From Candidatus Olsenella pullistercoris (GTDB taxonomy: Bacteria; Actinomycetota; Coriobacteriia; Coriobacteriales; Atopobiaceae), in NCBI GenBank assembly GCA_019116525.1, contig DXBM01000010.1, positions 19,603-83,602 on the forward strand: DNA of 64,000 nt. Direction: 5' to 3'. The translations under genes and the position numbers were made by a program. Positions 17,191 to 27,487 of the stretch are shown piece by piece; position 1 is the first letter of the stretch, and the number at the start of each line of letters is the position of its first letter. Under the pieces are notes generated by a model. That model worked only from the letters and a program-made list of their open reading frames with translations, had not been told where the DNA came from and made no database searches.

Positions 17191-17308
17191 GTGAGGTTTC
17201 GATGTTCCCCGGGGAGCCTTTCTCGAACTCCGCTACCGTATGTCCGGAACTTTGAGAACCTGCATTCAGTCCCAAATCAAGAAACCAACACACCCTTGGG
17301 AGGAACCG

Positions 17309-18985
17309 ATGCGAAACACAAGCGGCATAACCCGTCGTCAGCTCGTGAGGGCCTCTGCGCTCGGGGTGGGGACGTGCCTCGTCCTCGGCGCGGCGCCCGC
17401 GCGCGCCGAGGAGGCGCGTGAGGCGCTGCCCTCCGAGGCCCTCGACTACCTCTACATAGACTCCTCGAGCATATGCGCTGGGGAGGAGCAGAACGTGGTT
17501 ATCGCCCTGCTCGACCACGATGGCTTCACGTCTGCCACGCTCCTTCTCACGAGCGCTGACGGCTCTGAGCGCACCGTGGCCCTTACGCGTGGGGCGGATA
17601 ACGCGATGCTCTTTGCCTTTGCTGCCGAGGAGGGGGCCTGGACGGTGAGCTCGACCTCCTTTGCGGACGCCAAGGGAAGCTACTGCCTTGACCTCTCGGG
17701 GGAGGACGCCGACGTGCGATCGTTCGAGGTGGCCTCGGCCACGGTCTCCGCTCTCAGCGAGACGAGCGGGAGCTCCGAGGGGGACCTGGACGAGGAGATG
17801 ACCTTGCAGGTCTACAGCGGGGACGACGAGGGCGAGGTGATCGAGTCCTCCTCCATTGAGGACGCCGCCGCGGTGACGGGGGTCACTGCCTCGTCCTCGA
17901 GCGCACGGAGCGTGGAGAGAGCTTCCAACGTGATCGTGGCGCTCGATCCCGGCCACGTTGCCGCCGGCTCTGGCGCCTCGGGCAACGGGCTTCACGAGGA
18001 GGAGCTCACCTGGCAGATAGCGCAGTACTGCAAGGCCGAGCTCGACTCTTACGTCGGCGTCTCGTCTTTCTACACCGTTACTCCGAGCAGCGAGTCATAC
18101 GCCGGGGATGCGAAGGGTGACCTCCTGCGCCGCGTCGAGGCAGCGGTTGAGGGTGACGCTGCGGTGCTCGTGAGCCTTCACATCAACTCGAGCTCCAGCG
18201 GCGGGGCGTATGGCGCCGAGGTCTACGCTCCCTACGACGGGAGCTACAACAACAATACGCACACTGTGGGCGAGGCTCTCGCCGAGAGGATCATCGGGCA
18301 GCTCGAGGACCTTGGCCTCTTCAACCGCGGCGTGCGCTTCCGGACCATCAGCAACAACGAGAACTACGAGTACGCCGACGGCTCGGACGGGGACTACTAC
18401 GGCATCATTCGCTACGCTCGCCAAGAGGGGCTGCCCGCCGTCATCGTGGAGCACGCCTTCATCAGCAACGCGAGCGATGCCTCCAAGTTCCTGAGCTCTT
18501 CCGCAAAGTTGAAGAAGCTCGGAATTGCCGATGCCACGGGCATCGCCAACTACTTTGGCCTCTCCAAGATCCCCGGTGCCATGTACCGCATGTACAACCC
18601 CAACTCCGGCGAGCACTTCTACACCGCGAGAGCCTACGAGCGCGACTCCCTGGTCGACGCCGGCTGGAACTACGAGGGCCTCGGTTGGGTCGCGCCTGAG
18701 AAGTCCAACACCCCGGTCTACCGTCTTTACAACCCCAACGCAGGTGACCATCACTACACGACGAGCGCCTACGAGCGCGACCACCTGCGCTCGGTGGGCT
18801 GGAACTACGAGGGCGTCGGCTGGTACTCCGACGACGCCAAGTCCGTTGCCGTCTACCGCCAGTACAACCCCAACGCACGAGCCGGTGCTCACAACTTCAC
18901 GACGAGCACCTACGAGCGCGACCAGCTCGTCAAGGCAGGGTGGCATGACGAGGGCATCGCCTGGTACGCGACCGAGACCGCCTAG
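17309..18985 (+). CDS. N-acetylmuramoyl-L-alanine amidase (Amidase_3) with Tat-like signal and three DUF5648-type repeats
   Basis: ATG 17309 (MRNTSGITRRQLVRAS) follows GGGAGG; the track start at 17240 is too early. The N-terminus has a twin-arginine pattern (TRRQLV) and a hydrophobic stretch ending in ARA, so Tat export is likely. From about residue 210 the Amidase_3 zinc-enzyme motifs appear: 'ALDPGH', 'GLHEEEL', 'LVSLHINSS' and the catalytic-glutamate motif 'VEHAFIS' near 380. These supply the usual His/Glu/His ligands. The enzyme cuts the muramoyl-alanine bond of peptidoglycan. The last 135 residues are three repeats of the 'YRMYNPNSGEHFYT' type. It lies 20 nt upstream of the glucosaminidase gene, probably in one transcript. 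Confidence 0.92.
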   Translation: MRNTSGITRRQLVRASALGVGTCLVLGAAPARAEEAREALPSEALDYLYIDSSSICAGEEQNVVIALLDHDGFTSATLLLTSADGSERTVALTRGADNAMLFAFAAEEGAWTVSSTSFADAKGSYCLDLSGEDADVRSFEVASATVSALSETSGSSEGDLDEEMTLQVYSGDDEGEVIESSSIEDAAAVTGVTASSSSARSVERASNVIVALDPGHVAAGSGASGNGLHEEELTWQIAQYCKAELDSYVGVSSFYTVTPSSESYAGDAKGDLLRRVEAAVEGDAAVLVSLHINSSSSGGAYGAEVYAPYDGSYNNNTHTVGEALAERIIGQLEDLGLFNRGVRFRTISNNENYEYADGSDGDYYGIIRYARQEGLPAVIVEHAFISNASDASKFLSSSAKLKKLGIADATGIANYFGLSKIPGAMYRMYNPNSGEHFYTARAYERDSLVDAGWNYEGLGWVAPEKSNTPVYRLYNPNAGDHHYTTSAYERDHLRSVGWNYEGVGWYSDDAKSVAVYRQYNPNARAGAHNFTTSTYERDQLVKAGWHDEGIAWYATETA

Positions 18986-19005
18986 CGCCCGGAGATTGGA
19001 GCCAC

Positions 19006-20103
19006 ATGACCAAGCGGACCCATGTCCCACACATTCTTGCAGCTCTCTCCCTCGTTGTTGCCCTCTTGCTGGGAGCGCTCGTCCCCTGCGGCTCATCCGC
19101 GCTTGCAGCAGAGGCGACCGAGACAGAGGGCGTACAGATGTACCGCCTCTACAACCCCAACTCCGGCGAGCATTTTTACACCGCGAGCGCCTACGAGCGC
19201 GACTCCCTCGTCAAAGAGGGCTGGGAGAGCGAGGGCGTGGGCTGGATTGCCCCCGCGAAGTCCGACACGCCGGTCTACCGCCTCTACAACCCCAACGCTG
19301 GAGACCACCACTACACCGCCTCCGCCTACGAGCGCGACAGCCTTGTCAAGGCGGGCTGGAGGTACGAGAACGTGGGCTGGTACTCCGACGACGCTGAGGC
19401 GGTGGCGGTGTACCGGCAGTACAACCCCAACGCAGTCTCGGGGGCCCACAACTACACGACGAGCACCTACGAGCGTGACATGCTCATCAAGGCGGGCTGG
19501 AACGACGAGGAGATCGGTTGGTACGGGCTTTCCACGAGCGAGGATGACCCCTACCACGGCCTTGCCACGCGTACGCCCATCATGGGCGCCTCCTCGGTGA
19601 GCGCAGATGAGATGGTCGCCTACTTCCAGGCCTACCTCGACCGCACGGGCAAGGAGTACCCCGCGGACGTCTACGCCCAGTACGGCGCCGCAACGCTTGA
19701 GGACTTCTGCCGAATCCTGCTCGAGGAGGCCAACGCTGAGGGAGTGAGGGCAGAGGTGCTCTTTGCGCAGGTGGTGCATGAGACGGGCTACCTGCAGTTT
19801 GGCGGGCAGGTCAAGGCCGAGCAGTGCAACTTCGGCGGCATCGGCGCCACTGACGGCGGCGCTTCAGGGGCCGACTTCAGCAACAACGGCGAGGACTCGG
19901 TTCGCATCGGGCTGCGCGCGCAGGCGCAGCACCTCAAGGCATACGCCTCCACCGAGCCGCTCGAGCAGGAGTGCGTGGACCCGCGCTTCAACCTCGTTAC
20001 GCGCGGCTCGGCGCCCCTCGTCGAGAACCTCGGGAGCGGCAAGTGGGCCTCGAGCCCCTACTACGCCGAGGCGCTGACGAAGATCATATCCGCGCTGGTG
20101 TAG
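19006..20103 (+). CDS. Secreted beta-N-acetylglucosaminidase with three N-terminal DUF5648-type repeats
   Basis: ATG 19006 follows GGAGATTGGA. The 365-aa protein has a signal peptide (hydrophobic 11-31, cut near ALAAEA). Three repeats of about 45 residues (about 45-175) follow, then a glucosaminidase domain (about 200-365). The latter shows 'LLEEANAEGVRAEVLFAQVVHETG', with the conserved 'VHETG' holding the likely catalytic glutamate, and 'CNFGGIGA'. Such LytD/FlgJ-type enzymes cleave the GlcNAc-MurNAc glycan backbone. The repeats are N-terminal here but C-terminal in the amidase and CAP proteins, so the module is portable. Cooperation with the amidase immediately upstream in wall turnover is inferred. 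Confidence 0.9.
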   Translation: MTKRTHVPHILAALSLVVALLLGALVPCGSSALAAEATETEGVQMYRLYNPNSGEHFYTASAYERDSLVKEGWESEGVGWIAPAKSDTPVYRLYNPNAGDHHYTASAYERDSLVKAGWRYENVGWYSDDAEAVAVYRQYNPNAVSGAHNYTTSTYERDMLIKAGWNDEEIGWYGLSTSEDDPYHGLATRTPIMGASSVSADEMVAYFQAYLDRTGKEYPADVYAQYGAATLEDFCRILLEEANAEGVRAEVLFAQVVHETGYLQFGGQVKAEQCNFGGIGATDGGASGADFSNNGEDSVRIGLRAQAQHLKAYASTEPLEQECVDPRFNLVTRGSAPLVENLGSGKWASSPYYAEALTKIISALV

Positions 20104-20397: not shown

Positions 20398-20601
20398 ATG
20401 GCTCAGGGTACTGTTAAGTGGTTCAATCCGGACAAGGGCTACGGCTTCATCTCCCGCGAGGACGGGGACGACCTGTTCGTTCACTTCTCCGAGATTCAGA
20501 TGGACGGCTTCAAGACGCTGGACGAGGGCCAGGCCGTTGAGTTTGACATCACGACCGGCCAGAACGGCAAGCTCCAGGCCTCCAACGTTCGCAAGATCTA
20601 G
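20398..20601 (+). CDS. cspA: Cold-shock protein (CspA family)
   Basis: The 67-aa protein starts at ATG 20398 after AGAAAGAAAGG; the longer ORF in the track is an upstream extension. It contains both RNA-binding motifs: RNP1-like 'KGYGFIS' and RNP2-like 'DLFVHFSEI', plus the opening '[11 protein letters not shown]'. Such single-domain OB-fold proteins bind single-stranded RNA and DNA and melt mRNA structure at low temperature or during general growth. The gene is monocistronic, with structured DNA upstream and a terminator downstream. Confidence 0.96.
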
Positions 20602-20624: not shown

Positions 20625-20659
20625 GAGGGGCTCGGACCTGTGGTCCGGGTCCCTCTTTT
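20625..20659 (+). terminator. Rho-independent terminator after cspA
   Basis: GAGGGG-CTCGGACC pairs with GGTCCGGG-TCCCTC around a TGT loop with minor mismatches, then TTTTC follows. It lies about 24 nt after the stop codon. Confidence 0.8.
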
Positions 20660-20770
20660 CGTGTGGGTCGTGGTCCGGACGTGGTTGTGACACTGCGGGT
20701 GTTTCATCCCGGCGCATGGTCCTTCTCGGCTTCCTATTTGCCTCAATTCTGTCCTCCTTTCTGCCTTCTT

Positions 20771-21009
20771 TCTCACTTCCGTCAATCTGACGTTTCTGAG
20801 AGGCCCCCTGTGCTGTTTCCCTTCTCACAAACGTCATATTGACGCTTCAATGAAGGGCTGCGTGAAGAGGGCTTGCACAGATGCGTCAACTTGACGGAAG
20901 TGAGATTCCTCTCACGGAGGCTGACCCCACAGATGCGTCTGTCTGACAGAAGTGAGAAGGTGCCGGGTTCGGGCGGCATTTCACAAACGTCTGTTTGACG
21001 CTTCTGCGA
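20771..21009. repeat. Five 31-bp palindromic repeats at an exact 52-bp period
   Basis: Units start at 20771, 20823, 20875, 20927 and 20979; each is 31 bp and each gap is 21 bp. The core is CGTCA-N3-TGACG, with dyad centres at 20786, 20838, 20890, 20942 and 20994. The first unit is a complete two-part palindrome TCTCA-N4-CGTCA-N3-TGACG-N4-TGAGA; the others keep most of it. Flank similarity suggests units 3 and 4 are inverted relative to 1, 2 and 5. The period equals about five helical turns, so all sites face the same side of DNA. The array fills the space between cspA and the MarR/ABC operon. The binding protein is unknown. Confidence 0.85.
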
Positions 21010-21114
21010 AGGACGAGCAGCGTGACCGACGGGATAGTTAGGGTTCGGTTGGAAAGGGAGCTTCTCGGTACTGGAGCGGACCCTGCCCTGATCTCGTGCG
21101 CGGGAGAAACCCCC

Positions 21115-21143
21115 TTGACAACAATCCGAAATCGGACTATTGT
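21115..21143 (+). promoter_or_regulatory. Promoter with overlapping MarR-type operator
   Basis: TTGACA (21115-21120) and TATTGT (21138-21143) are 17 nt apart. The spacer and -10 carry an imperfect dyad (ACAAT-CCGA / TCGG-ACT-ATTGT, 21121-21143). MarR proteins commonly bind such dyads over their own promoter. Autorepression of the marR/ABC operon is therefore likely, but inferred. Confidence 0.65.
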
Positions 21144-21175
21144 GGCGCCTCGTGACCGTCAGGAGGGAGGGCGCC

Positions 21176-21643
21176 GTGCCAGAGCGCGCCGAGGTCGTGA
21201 GCGCCCGCGCGCTCGACGTCCTGTACCAAAAGACCGACAAGGTCTACTACGAGTTCGCCCGAGGGTGCGGCCTCTCCGAGACCGCGTACTGGATCCTCTA
21301 CGCCATCGAGGTCTCGGGTGGCCACGCGGCGCAGAGCGTCATCGCCACGGAGTTCTCGTACTCCAAGCAGACGGTCAACTCCGCGCTCAAGTCGCTTGAG
21401 GCAAAGGGGCTCGTGGAGCTCTCCTTTGCGGAGGGCAGCCGTCGCTCCAAGGTCGTCTCGCTCACGAGGGCGGGGCGCGCCTTCAGCGACGCGCGCATCG
21501 TGCCCGCCATCGAGGCGGAGGACCGCGCCTTCTCAAGCCTCACGGCACGGGAGCGCGCCGAGTTCCTGCGTCTCGCGCGGGCCTACACCGACGCCATCGA
21601 CCGAGAGCTCGCCGGCATCGCACAGAAAGGGGAGGGCAAGTGA
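21176..21643 (+). CDS. MarR-family transcriptional regulator
   Basis: GTG 21176 (MPERAEVVSARALD) has AGGAGGG 8 nt upstream; the track start at 21140 would place the start codon inside the -10 element. The 155-aa protein has a typical winged-helix MarR plan. The recognition helix lies around 'SVIATEFSYSKQTVNSALKSLEAKGLV', of which 'SKQTVNSALKSLEAKG' is the clearest part, and the wing around 'GSRRSKVVSLT'. MarR regulators respond to small molecules and usually repress a neighbouring efflux system. Its stop overlaps the ABC gene start by 4 nt (GTGA), which supports control of that exporter. Confidence 0.9.
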   Translation: MPERAEVVSARALDVLYQKTDKVYYEFARGCGLSETAYWILYAIEVSGGHAAQSVIATEFSYSKQTVNSALKSLEAKGLVELSFAEGSRRSKVVSLTRAGRAFSDARIVPAIEAEDRAFSSLTARERAEFLRLARAYTDAIDRELAGIAQKGEGK

Positions 21644-23415
21644 GCGAGAAGAAACGCGACTACAGCAAGCGCACCTCGGCGCGCCTGCTGCTCAGCCTGC
21701 TCGCGCCCTACAAGGGGCTCGTGGCGCTGATCTTTGTCACGATGATCTTTGACCTGACGGGAATGCTGTTCATTCCGACGCAGCTCTCCGCGATGGTCAA
21801 CGTTGCCGTGAACTCGCGCGACATGAGCTCGCTCATGGGCCATGGCGTCGCGATGCTGATCGCCGCCTTCGTGGGATCGGGCGGCTACATCGCCTCGGTC
21901 TACCTCTCCTCGAGGCTCTGCGCCAAGGTGGGCCGCGACCTTCGCATGCGCGTCTACGAGGCTTCGCTTGGCTTCTCCGGCTCCGACTTCAACGCGTTCG
22001 GCACGGGGTCGATGATCACGCGCACCCTCTCCGACGCCAACGTCGTTCAACAGACGCTGCTCATGTCGATCCTCATGATCGTCCCCGTTCCCATCATGTG
22101 CGCAATTGCGGTGGGCCTGGCCTTCTCCACCGACGTTGTCATGGGCTGGGTGCTCCTGGCCGTGACGCTCGTGGTCGTGGCGATTTGCGTTGCCGCCGTG
22201 GCGAAGTCGGCGCCCATCTTCACGCGCCTCCAGGGCTTCATCGACAACATGAACACGCGCCTTCGCGAGTCCATCACAGGAGTCCGCGTGATCAGGGCCT
22301 TTGGCAAGGAGTCGCACGAGCGCGCCCGTCTGAACGAGACGTTCACTGACTACGCCTCGAACGCCATCCGGGTGAACATGGTGTTCGCTCTCACGGATTC
22401 CGTCACGTTCTTCCTCATGAACGCCGTAGAGGCGGCCATCATGTGGGCCGGGGCGGACCGCGTTGGCGCTCACGCCATGCAGATCGGCTCGATCTCGGCG
22501 CTCGTCGAGTACGCGATGCTCATCATGATGTTCCTCATGATGGCGCAGTTCGCCATCCTCCAGGTGCCCCGCGCCCTCGCGTGCCTGACGCGGGCCGCTG
22601 AGGTTCTCGACGTGAGGCCCGAGATTGCCGACGCCCCTGCCACGGCCTCGATCAAGGGTGGCGAGAGGGGCGAGGAGGTCGCGCGCTTCGACCACGTGAG
22701 CATGCGCTTCTCCGACGCCGACGAGGACACGCTGCACGACATCTCCTTCGCGCTGCGCCGCGGCGAGGTGACGGCGATCATCGGCAACACGGGCTCGGGC
22801 AAGTCAACGATCGCAAAGATGCTCCTGCGCTTCAACGACGTGACGGGCGGCAGCCTCACCTTCGGCGGCGTGGACGTGCGCCGCCTCGCCCAGGCTGAGC
22901 TGCGCGAGCGCATCGCGTACGTGCCGCAGAAGGCATGGCTCTTCTCGGGCACGATCGCCGAGAACCTCCGCCACGGAGACGCGAGCGCCCCCGACGAGCG
23001 GCTCTGGCACGCGCTCGACGTCGCACAGGGCTCCTTCGTCCGAGACCTGCCCGACGCGCTCGGGACGCGCGTGGCACAGGGTGGCACGAACTTCTCCGGC
23101 GGGCAGCGCCAGCGCCTCGCCATCGCCCGCGCCCTCGTGCGAGGGGCCGACCTCTATGTGTTCGACGACTCGTTCTCCGCGCTCGACTACAAGACCGACT
23201 CCGCGCTGCGCCGTGCCCTCAAGGGGGAGCTCACGGACGCGGCCACGCTCATCATCGCGCAGCGCGTGAGCACCATCCATGACGCCGACCAGATTGTTGT
23301 CCTCAAGGACGGCGAGGTCGTGGGCCTGGGGACCCACGACGAGCTCATGGCCGGCTGCCCCACCTACCGCGCCATCGCCGACTCCCAGACGAGAGGGGAG
23401 GACTCCCATGCCTAG
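21640..23415 (+). CDS. ABC exporter half-transporter with degenerate ATP site (heterodimer subunit 1)
   Basis: GTG 21640 overlaps the marR stop (GTGA). The 591-aa protein has six N-terminal membrane helices. A C-terminal ATPase follows, with Walker A 'GNTGSGKST' near 382, signature 'FSGGQRQRLAIARAL' and Walker B 'LYVFDDSFSALD'. The residue after the Walker B Asp is Asp instead of the catalytic Glu. This is the mark of the degenerate site in heterodimeric exporters such as LmrCD, BmrCD and TM287/288. With the next gene it should form a drug or lipid exporter under MarR control. Substrate unknown. Confidence 0.92.
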   Translation: MSEKKRDYSKRTSARLLLSLLAPYKGLVALIFVTMIFDLTGMLFIPTQLSAMVNVAVNSRDMSSLMGHGVAMLIAAFVGSGGYIASVYLSSRLCAKVGRDLRMRVYEASLGFSGSDFNAFGTGSMITRTLSDANVVQQTLLMSILMIVPVPIMCAIAVGLAFSTDVVMGWVLLAVTLVVVAICVAAVAKSAPIFTRLQGFIDNMNTRLRESITGVRVIRAFGKESHERARLNETFTDYASNAIRVNMVFALTDSVTFFLMNAVEAAIMWAGADRVGAHAMQIGSISALVEYAMLIMMFLMMAQFAILQVPRALACLTRAAEVLDVRPEIADAPATASIKGGERGEEVARFDHVSMRFSDADEDTLHDISFALRRGEVTAIIGNTGSGKSTIAKMLLRFNDVTGGSLTFGGVDVRRLAQAELRERIAYVPQKAWLFSGTIAENLRHGDASAPDERLWHALDVAQGSFVRDLPDALGTRVAQGGTNFSGGQRQRLAIARALVRGADLYVFDDSFSALDYKTDSALRRALKGELTDAATLIIAQRVSTIHDADQIVVLKDGEVVGLGTHDELMAGCPTYRAIADSQTRGEDSHA

Positions 23416-25264
23416 CGAGAAGGACCTTGAGCTCGACCAGCGCGCCGAGCTCGCGCGCGGCGAGGCCGCCGTTGCGGATGAGGAGCTCGAGATGCCCGAG
23501 GACGCCCTCGGCACGGCCGCTCGCCTCTGGGGCGCGGCCTCCGGGCAGCGCTGGCGCCTCGTGGTCGCCGCGGTCTGCTCTGTGGGATACGTCGCGGGCA
23601 GCCTCGGCGCCACCGCCTACAGCGCGGGGCTCATCGACCTGCTCTGGGGCAACATCCAGGAGGCGTTCTCCCTGGGTGCGCCGTTCGTCGTGACGCTCGA
23701 GAACGGCGGGACGCAGATCCTCACCTTCCTGGGGATTTGGACGGCTGCCGCGGTGGCATACACGGTCCAGGTGCTCGTCATGGCGAGCTTTGCCGAGCGG
23801 CTGAACCTCAGCCTGCGCAACCAGATCTCCGAGAAGCTCGCGCGCCTGCCGCTCTCCTACTACGATGCGCACCAGCCGGGCGACACCATCAGCCGGGCCA
23901 CCAACGACCTCGACAAGATCTCCGAGGTGCTCCAGCGCGGGCTCCTCCAGCTCGTGATCGCGGTGTGCATGGTCGGCGGCGCCGTCGTGCTCATGGCTAC
24001 CTACGACCTCGTTCTGACGCTCGTCTTCGTGGCGTTCGCCCTGGCCGCCTCCGTGGCCACCAAGCTCGTCTCGGGCTACACGCTCAAGGTCGCCGCGGCG
24101 CGCCAGGCCTCGCTCGGCGCGCTCACCGGTCGCGTCGAGGAGGCCTACAGCGGCCGCGCCGTCATCAAGGCATTCGGTCGCGAGGGCGCGAGCCGCAAGG
24201 AGGTCCTTGCAGCCGCGGAGGAGCTTGCCCAGGCCTCGGGCACCGCTGACTTCGTGACCAACGCCATCACGCCCGCCATCCGCTTCCTGATGCGCCTCTG
24301 TCAGGTGACCGTTGGTCTTCTCGCCGGCGGCATGCTCGTCATGGGACAGATCAGCGTGGGCACCTTCCAGGCGTTCTTCCAGTACGTCATGCAGGCGTCC
24401 GAGCCGCTCACGCAGCTCTCCCTCACCGTGAACATGCTCCAGGGCGCGCTCGCTGCGGCGGAGCGCGTGTTCGCCCTGCTCGACGAGGGCGAGGTCGTGC
24501 CCGATCCGGCGGTGCCCGCCGAGCTCGCCGAGCCCGTGCGCGGGCGCGTGTGCTTCGAGCACGTGCGCTTTGGCTACTCCGCGGACCGTCCCCTCATGCG
24601 CGACGTCTCGCTCGTTGCCGAGCCCGGCCAGAAGGTGGCCATCGTCGGCGCCACGGGTGCGGGCAAGACGACCCTCATCAACCTGCTCATGCGCTTCTAT
24701 GAGGTCGATGGCGGGCGCATCACGCTCGACGGGGTGGACACGCGCGAGCTCACGCGCGCCGAGCTTCGGCGCCAGTTCGGAATGGTGCTCCAGGACGCGT
24801 GGCTGTTCGAGGGCACGATCGCCGAGAACATCGCCTACGGCAAGCCGGGCTGCACGCGCGAGGAGGTCGAGGCTGCCGCTCGCGCTGCGCACGTTGACTT
24901 CTTTGTGCGGACCCTGCCGCGCGGCTACGACACGATGCTCTCCAACGACGCCGAGAACATCTCGCAGGGCCAGCGTCAGCTCCTCACGATCGCGCGCGCG
25001 ATGCTCACCGATCCCGCGATCCTCATCCTGGACGAGGCAACCTCGAGCGTCGACACCCGGACCGAGCAGGCCATCGTGCGCGCGATGGAGGCCATCATGG
25101 AGAACCGCACGAGCTTCGTGATCGCGCACCGGCTCTCGACAATCGTTGACGCCGACCTCATCCTCGTCATGGAGCGCGGAACAATCATCGAGCAGGGCAC
25201 GCACGCCGAGCTTCTCGCCGCCGGTGGCGCCTACGCCGAGCTCTATCGCAGCCAGTTCGCCTGA
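23408..25264 (+). CDS. ABC exporter half-transporter with canonical Walker B (heterodimer subunit 2)
   Basis: ATG 23408 (MPSEKDLELDQ) follows GGGGAGGA and overlaps the previous gene by 8 nt; the track start at 23279 is too early. The 618-aa protein has an acidic N-terminal extension, six membrane helices, Walker A 'GATGAGKTTL' near 413 and canonical Walker B 'ILILDEATSSVD'. Its signature is altered to 'NISQGQRQLLTIARAM', as usual for this partner. The two altered motifs from the two subunits fall in the same composite site, so one ATP site is weak and one active. The stop codon TGA is the first three bases of a REP-like element. Confidence 0.92.
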   Translation: MPSEKDLELDQRAELARGEAAVADEELEMPEDALGTAARLWGAASGQRWRLVVAAVCSVGYVAGSLGATAYSAGLIDLLWGNIQEAFSLGAPFVVTLENGGTQILTFLGIWTAAAVAYTVQVLVMASFAERLNLSLRNQISEKLARLPLSYYDAHQPGDTISRATNDLDKISEVLQRGLLQLVIAVCMVGGAVVLMATYDLVLTLVFVAFALAASVATKLVSGYTLKVAAARQASLGALTGRVEEAYSGRAVIKAFGREGASRKEVLAAAEELAQASGTADFVTNAITPAIRFLMRLCQVTVGLLAGGMLVMGQISVGTFQAFFQYVMQASEPLTQLSLTVNMLQGALAAAERVFALLDEGEVVPDPAVPAELAEPVRGRVCFEHVRFGYSADRPLMRDVSLVAEPGQKVAIVGATGAGKTTLINLLMRFYEVDGGRITLDGVDTRELTRAELRRQFGMVLQDAWLFEGTIAENIAYGKPGCTREEVEAAARAAHVDFFVRTLPRGYDTMLSNDAENISQGQRQLLTIARAMLTDPAILILDEATSSVDTRTEQAIVRAMEAIMENRTSFVIAHRLSTIVDADLILVMERGTIIEQGTHAELLAAGGAYAELYRSQFA

Positions 25265-25522: not shown

Positions 25523-27487
25523 ATGAGAGTCAAGGTGCTGCTCGCCTCGTGCGCAATCGTTCTCGCGCTGCTTGCCTGCCCGACGGAGGGTGCTGGCGCG
25601 CTCGAGAGGGGCGATGGGCCGGCAGAGTCCGTCATCGCCGCGAGCGCGGCAGGCGTCGACGAGGGGGCGCCCCTTGGTGACATCCTCACTGAGGGGGATT
25701 CCCTCGAGGAGGGCATCGTCGAGGGGGGCGCGTCCGTCAGCGCGACCGACCCTGAGAAGGGAGTAGCGCTCGAGGGCGAGACCTAAGTCCTGGTGGTAGA
25801 TGAGGGCCAGGGCGAGACGGGCGTCGCTGACTCAGACGAGCCCGAGAGCTCAACGGGCGTAACGGATACCGTGCTTGCTGGGGACGGCGAGGAGAGCGCT
25901 TCCGACGGGGTCTCTGACGAGGGTGACTCGTCTCTTGAGGATCAGGTGCCCGCTCCCGATGCTTCAGCCGTTACGGGCGACGCTGCCGAGGGGCCGCTCA
26001 TGCCCAGCGACGACATCCTCTCCCTTGATGACCCTGCGACGGACTTCTCCCTCACCGATGAGGAGGCTGCCGAGGAGGGAGTGAAGGGCGTCAGCGAGCA
26101 GTCTGACGCTGCCGCCGAAACGGCAAAGCAGGTCGCAACAGTTACAAGCTATCGCATGTACAACCCCAACTCGGGCGAGCACTTCTACACGCTGAGCACC
26201 TACGAGCGCGACAGCCTCGTCAAGGCTGGCTGGAGGTACGAGGGGGTCGGCTGGACCTCGGTGGTCAAGTCCAACACGCCGGTCTATCGCCTCTACAACC
26301 CCAACGCGGGAGACCATCACTACACGACCTCCGCGTACGAGCGTGACAGCCTCATCAGGGCAGGCTGGCGCTACGAGGGCGTTGGCTGGTACTCAGACGA
26401 CGACAAGGGGATCGCGCTCTACCGCACGTATAACCCCAACGCCTCTACGGGCACGCATCACTACACCACGAGCCTCTACGAGCGCCTCAACATCGTCTCG
26501 GCCGGCTGGCGTTATGAAGGCCTCGCCTGGTACGCGGTTGACCTTGGACCCTTCGCTCCGAGCGACGCCGATCCCGGCTGGGTCGAGAGCGGCGGAAGGA
26601 GGTTCTACGTTGGCGAGAACGGCCAGGCCGTCACGGGCTGGCAGACCATCGGCGGGACGCGCTACCACTTCGACGGGCGCGGTCGTCTCTCAACCGGCCT
26701 CTCCGACATTGATGGCACCGTCTATTATCTCAAGTCCGACGGTACCCCCGACGCCGGCTGGAAGGACATGGCGGGATATCGCTACTACTTCAACTCTGAC
26801 GGCTCCATGTACCGGAGCGGCTGGCTCACGCTCAGCGGCAAGACCTACTACCTCGACAAGACCTCCGGTGCCATGGCCACCGGCGACAAGTGGATTGACG
26901 GCGTGCTGCGCCCCTTCTCCTCCAACGGCGTCTGTCTCAAGACCGGCTACCAGGTGAGCTGGAAGGGCCTGCACCTCGCTGCCGAAAACGTTAGTCTTCC
27001 GAGCTACGCCAACGGCTCGAGCTGGAGCTACGTGCACCCGTGCACCATCTCGGCGGGCGCCACGCGCGAGCAGTGCATCGAGGCCTTCATTGCGGTCGCC
27101 TACGAGTACATGAACGCCGGCACGCCCTGGGTCGACAACAACTGCGGTCGCCCTGGCACCACGGTCGACTGCTCCGGCCTCGTCATGGAGGGGCTCTACG
27201 CGGCGGGCATGGACCTCACCGGCGTCGCGGGCGGGGACTTCAACCCCTACAGCAAGTACTACTGGAACCACAGCTTCGCCAACACGTGGCGCGAGAACCA
27301 GACGTTCCAGCCCGTCTCGCGCTCCGAGCTCGAGCGTGGCGATCTTGTCTACTGGAACGGTCACGTTGCCATCTACCTTGGCAACGGTCAGATCATCGAG
27401 TCCACCTCGGTGGCATCCAACGTGCACGTGAGGAGCCTCTACGCCGAGAACCTCATCCTCGGTTACGCGAGGCCGTTCACCAAGTAG
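25523..27487 (+). pseudogene. Secreted NlpC/P60 peptidase with DUF5648-type and glucan-binding repeats, split by an in-frame TAA
   Basis: ATG 25523 begins a good signal peptide (MRVKVLLASCAIVLALLAC). The frame stays open through an acidic low-complexity region to TAA at 25784-25786, and the same frame then continues to 27487. The track shows the halves as 25271-25786 and 25793-27487. Read through, it would have 654 residues: signal, acidic region, three DUF5648-type repeats (about 209-339), cell-wall/glucan-binding repeats (about 350-470) and an NlpC/P60 domain (about 513-652). That domain has 'VDCSGLVMEG' (catalytic Cys) and 'GHVAIYLGNGQ' (His). The downstream half alone lacks a signal peptide. 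It could be a true nonsense mutation, recent because the rest is intact, or a sequencing error. Confidence 0.8.

Follow-up and report, generated by a model that had tools for sequence, protein, structure and literature searches.

Genomic context of the palindromic array

The window analyzed here is a stretch of 64,000 nucleotides from Candidatus Olsenella pullistercoris, which forms part of contig C60 of a draft assembly (1.88 Mb, 81.5% complete). A palindromic array is located in it between cspA, which encodes a cold-shock domain protein (20398..20601, + strand), and an ORF for a MarR-family regulator (21140..21643, +; start codon uncertain), which is followed on the same strand by two ABC exporter half-transporters (21640..25264; 21640-23415 and 23279-25264). 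The array lies beyond the probable cspA terminator, a hairpin with CTCTTTTC at 20634..20661 (+). A promoter-like site for marR (21115..21143, +; TTGACA-17-TATTGT) is separate from the array, about 100 bp beyond it, and bears an imperfect palindrome of its own without the array core. Judging from these terminator-like and promoter-like sites, the array region is probably untranscribed. Three cell-wall hydrolase-like proteins, each with a DUF5648 domain, surround the region (17240-20103 and 25793-27487).

The array consists of five dyads at 20769-21011, with centers at 20786, 20838, 20890, 20942 and 20994, so that each step is exactly 52 bp. This agrees with the sequence-only reading, which had reported five palindromic sites at that period, and the result is far from chance: when the window was shuffled 200 times, not even three loose cores were ever found at 52-bp steps, as against the chain of five in the real window. 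The perfect CGTCA-N3-TGACG core, previously assigned to all five units, is present in units 1-3 only (three perfect cores in the window, with 0.11 expected by chance), and the cores of units 4 and 5 deviate. Conserved bases extend about 17 bp to either side of the dyad (CTCA at -14 to -11 and CGTCA at -6 to -2, giving CTCA...TGAG arms); the unit is therefore about 35 bp long and the linker 17 bp, which replaces the earlier description of 31-bp units with 21-bp gaps.

Each unit is a hetero-palindrome that joins half-sites of two types, and the units occur in mixed orientation, as had been seen from their flanks. Unit 1 (20769..20803, +) reads TTTCTCACTTCCGTCA-ATC-TGACGTTTCTGAGAGG and is followed by unit 2 (20821..20855, +); unit 3 (20873..20907, -) has the half-site TTCCGTCA at its right, unit 4 (20925..20959, -) has the degenerate core CGTCTGTCTGACA, and the core of unit 5 (20977..21011, +) is CGTCTGTTTGACG. 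The four linkers, to which no strand is assigned, fall within 20804..20976 (20804-20820, 20856-20872, 20908-20924 and 20960-20976), and their sequences are mutually unrelated except for one weak inverted match.

A family of arrays in one genome

Arrays were located in the draft genome by a core pattern search, and a profile (R1) was then built on 33 units. At least seven arrays are present, on contigs C12, C34, C43, C60 (the window array) and C61 and twice on C70; they hold the 33 units, with four to five units per array. Neither the core search nor the R1 profile revealed a clear singleton unit in the draft genome, and no further units adjoin the seven arrays; the profile indicated one more weak place, on contig C11 (E 0.3).

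All seven arrays are found downstream of a gene, five between co-directional genes, two between convergent genes and none between divergent ones. In addition to the window array between cspA and marR, the co-directional sites lie between a DUF956 gene and efp (EF-P), between a DUF3516 helicase and a HelD-like gene, between tgt and recJ, and between tRNA-Leu and an uncharacterized gene. The convergent sites lie between the uncharacterized gene next to the tRNA-Leu array and opp, and between an aldolase and lctP (lactate permease). In the window the array stands outside a terminator-like hairpin, and inspection by eye indicates the same at the tRNA-Leu and opp sites. No cognate gene was seen adjacent to the seven dispersed arrays. 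The site between efp and the DUF956 gene contains other palindromic elements or nothing in congeners, which suggests that such elements are repeatedly acquired at this intergenic site. The efp regions of congeners (L078, L084, L086, L088, L067 and L081) carry differing extragenic palindromic elements, mostly between efp and a DUF956-type gene, and some of these elements belong to one common family (AATCCCGAGTTACGC). The array-bearing genome also encodes four divergent RAYT-like Y1 transposases (L283, L285, L286 and L287), and the gene at L287 is flanked by hairpin repeats of its own (CCCCACTTGTACCAGGTACAAGTGGGG).

Arrays in related genomes

At E 0.01 the R1 profile found no second genome among the 140 genomes of the family (0 of the 139 others), so the arms are species-specific. 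Two further genera share the CGTCA-N3-TGACG core and the style of array but have different arms, with spacings of 52/41 bp in one and 61 bp in the other. A search of named genomes for two cores at array spacing gave at least two loci in Atopobiaceae bacterium RGIG5859 (G141, from sheep jejunum) among the matches listed, the majority of these being coding repeats or chance hits with no relation to the arrays. Some ten array loci are present in G141; their core is that of the window array and their arms are GGCCAGTCCGTCA / GCRAAGTAGCGTCA; forward units at 52 bp are followed by an inversion at 41-42 bp and then by reverse units, again 52 bp apart. A CGTACG box is conserved in the G141 linkers. 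Genus g50, with G132 and its relatives, has units of the form CTCCGGCGTCA...TGACGCCGGAG with the array core, spaced at 61 bp (60-62, 122, 123), and seven of its eight species have at least 85 matches per genome (listed range 85 to at least 150, both strands counted).

A three-unit similarity scan, run de novo on 400 kb of each of two congeners, G007 and G125, showed differently sequenced inverted arrays at 40-42 bp in both, with forward units first and reverse units after them. Arrays of 63 bp and 52 bp are found in G143 and G154. The sequence-only reading had expected a phased array to differ from single, randomly spaced units and to keep its 52-bp spacing in close relatives; the former is true of this genome, but the latter does not hold, since relatives use 40-42, 41/52, 61 or 63 bp. 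Outside the family, Pseudoalteromonas aurantia S3788, a gammaproteobacterium, has CGTC-core repeat arrays at about 62, 52 and 61 bp, which is near whole turns (L127, L159 and L112). In the order relative G328, pairs of the form CGTCATTTTGACG - 42 bp - CGTCAAAATGACG, whose interiors differ, are dispersed over L276 and four other places; the one that was read lies directly after a gene's stop codon.

Spacing and helical phase

The unit spacings in the seven arrays are 63, 62, 63 and 62; 63, 62, 52 and 52; 63, 63, 63 and 61; 53, 53, 51 and 52; 62, 52 and 52; 63, 62 and 63; and 52, 52, 52 and 52 bp. All 26 thus fall at 51-53 bp (five helical turns) or at 61-63 bp (six), and the two classes are one helical turn apart. 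Circular concentration of the 26 spacings is high near a period of 10.5 bp (Rayleigh R 0.94, with a maximum of 0.58 for random spacings). Within one array the linkers are unrelated in either orientation; the exceptions are a few weak inverted matches, of which the window array has the largest (z 3.7). These observations uphold the earlier proposal that the spacing of the dyads is under selection.

Pooling 84 spacings from five species gave a best period of 10.45 bp (R 0.90), a descriptive value, as related arrays are not independent. The genome of the window combines whole-turn spacings with free linker sequence, as expected of a helically phased DNA-binding array, but g50 departs from this, its 61-bp period corresponding to 5.84 turns and its pairs at 119-123 and 183 bp falling off the same face. 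Because multiples of 61 bp drift off one face, and because one column pair in g50 varies in a compensatory way, we limit strict phasing to this species and G141, where whole-turn phasing is well supported; in the wider family regular spacing may be common without strict phasing.

Double-stranded DNA or hairpins

Each unit combines two half-site types, TCACTTCCGTCA and variants that mostly end in AAACGTCA. In this genome the arms of a unit are complementary in 68.9% of cells, as against 72.4% when arms were re-paired at random, and 498 of 500 such shuffles scored at least as high; partner arms also resemble each other less than random partners do (p about 0.02 for mean arm identity). Since the arms show no hairpin-like co-variation, double-stranded DNA carrying two types of half-site is the best reading of the array, and not a series of RNA hairpins, in keeping with the recognition as double-stranded DNA that the sequence-only reading had implied. 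As a single strand the array folds far better than shuffled sequences (z -6.0 and -6.6), which does not decide the matter, since any series of like palindromes folds well. The preservation of a stem-loop by compensatory change, a property of REP/BIME elements, is not seen in this genome and is weakly positive in g50, where the one column pair varies between C-G and G-C as it would in a hairpin.

Functional interpretation and alternatives

On balance, we interpret the window array as one member of a family of extragenic palindromic arrays in Atopobiaceae, dispersed and lineage-specific, that resemble BIMEs or REP clusters and are read as double-stranded DNA by a putative protein with an architectural role. 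Each unit would be bound by a putative dimeric (or two-domain) DNA-binding protein of fast-evolving specificity, and neighboring complexes on one face of the helix may contact each other. Placed between transcription units, the resulting nucleoprotein cluster would have an architectural effect, through topology or insulation, and would probably not be an operator of the MarR/ABC genes. An architectural action through gyrase or IHF has been proposed for BIMEs. Whole-turn spacing, free linkers and non-complementary arms together point to selection on protein-DNA geometry and not on an RNA hairpin.

It is doubtful that the arrays are plain REP/BIME repeats spread by a transposase, either a RAYT or one since lost, with a functionless spacing inherited from a founder array, although much of their distribution would suit such an origin. 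Like REPs, they are scattered intergenic repeats that are confined to one species and placed downstream of genes (PMC3733652, PMC2817692), REP dimers have likewise been reported with spacers of like length and different sequence (PMC3733652), RAYT-like genes are present, and matches are numerous in g50. However, no array unit was found within 1.5 kb of RAYT genes in this genome (81.5% complete), in G143 or in genus g50, no array motif was found beside the RAYT genes of G007, G003, G024 and G001, and no RAYT was found in G125 and G141, both of which bear arrays. The existence of two spacing classes that differ by one turn, together with the saturated linkers, also argues against a functionless spacing, as does E. 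coli MG1655, whose BIMEs showed regular spacings without a helical period in a rough scan with a permissive pattern (R 0.25). An array of transcribed hairpins, serving as a terminator, mRNA-stability or processing element, would account for the position downstream of genes, the strong folding and the compensatory pair in g50. We regard it as improbable, because the arms in this genome pair worse than chance re-pairing, the units lack T-runs, the window array lies past the terminator that cspA already has, RNA has no need of helical spacing, and an Rfam scan gave no match at gathering score.

The phased dyads also resemble nucleoprotein partition sites, and there are several arrays per chromosome; nevertheless, centromere-like or chromosome-organizing sites are quite unlikely when the arm sequence is confined to one of 140 family genomes and g50 has dozens of units per genome. 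The single partition site that had been suggested is made unlikely by the presence of at least seven arrays. The suggestion of a phage or plasmid relic is not supported either, as searches of phage, plasmid and viral records gave no relevant match and the arrays adjoin ordinary chromosomal genes at seven scattered places. An operator array local to the MarR/ABC exporter or to cspA, close to the control array for the exporter that was originally envisaged, would fit the location upstream of marR, but its probability is very small: such sites would be expected at the promoter and to be specific to the operon, and what we find is a separate marR promoter-like site and, next to unrelated genes (EF-P, HelD, tgt/recJ, tRNA-Leu, opp and lactate permease), six sister arrays, two of them between convergent gene ends.

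Returning to a protein-bound architectural array, a broader version may be offered tentatively: Atopobiaceae could carry a putative DNA-binding protein that evolves rapidly and assembles short nucleoprotein clusters, in helical phase, at gene ends, with the site sequence turning over between species and the phasing grammar kept. If this is true, the putative clusters would be a new class of chromosome-architectural element. Extragenic palindromes are common and the reason for their persistence is unsettled; the small size of the present family (four to five units in each of seven arrays, and relatives with other sequences and spacings) makes the question directly testable.

Comparison with known repeat elements

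Several kinds of elements share single features with the arrays. CRISPR arrays consist of near-identical direct repeats in one orientation; the units here have about 72% column identity and mixed orientation, and this assignment was rejected. CRISPR-like arrays with a period of about 66 bp and a repeat containing GTCAG..TGAC (G306:C162, G323:C29 and G064:C8) came up in a loose core search and were set aside. In Streptomyces (L100, L109, L128, L134, L169 and L194), a promoter-like stretch upstream of a gene that looks like nadA (read in L128) is surrounded by three CGTCA-N3-TGACG-like sites, spaced at 23 and 34 bp. These sites probably belong to an unrelated NAD regulator and were not counted with the arrays. 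The mycobacterial NrtR motif (PMC6800001) differs from the array core.

The arrays share lineage-specific extragenic repeats and a genome with RAYT-like genes with the RAYT-mobilized GTAG REPs, but the GTAG/GGAG head at the foot of the palindrome that defines these (PMC2817692) is absent from the unit alignment. Closer at first sight are the CGTC-tagged REPs of Di Nocera et al. (2013, PMC3733652), which share the CGTC motif, species-wide families, clustering, convergent or unidirectional positions and the lack of a dedicated transposase. In those elements CGTC is an unpaired tag followed by a stem of 8-9 bp, a loop of 4-5 nt and a CCA-like tail, whereas in the arrays of this species CGTCA pairs with TGACG after 3 nt, and the unit alignment shows no such arrangement of tag, stem, loop and tail.

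Plasmid par sites and iterons are phased operator or partition arrays, which place several dyads on one helical face. The arrays of this species differ from them in being dispersed over seven places with no adjacent cognate gene seen. REPs in general are extragenic, clustered, lineage-specific and mostly downstream of genes (PMC2817692, PMC3733652), and the present family conforms in consisting of short extragenic palindromes in dispersed copies, clustered in both orientations, with a low copy number (33 units). The likeness is greatest to the BIMEs of E. coli, which are dispersed, lineage-specific intergenic clusters of palindromic units of 30-40 bp in both orientations and at regular spacing (PMC2817692). 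Unlike them, the arrays in this species combine whole-turn spacing and unrelated linkers with arms that are not self-complementary, always keep four to five units together, occur in low copy number and have no RAYT link that we could find. They are best filed as BIME-like extragenic arrays of an unusual type, read as double-stranded DNA, whose units in this species stand a whole number of helical turns apart.
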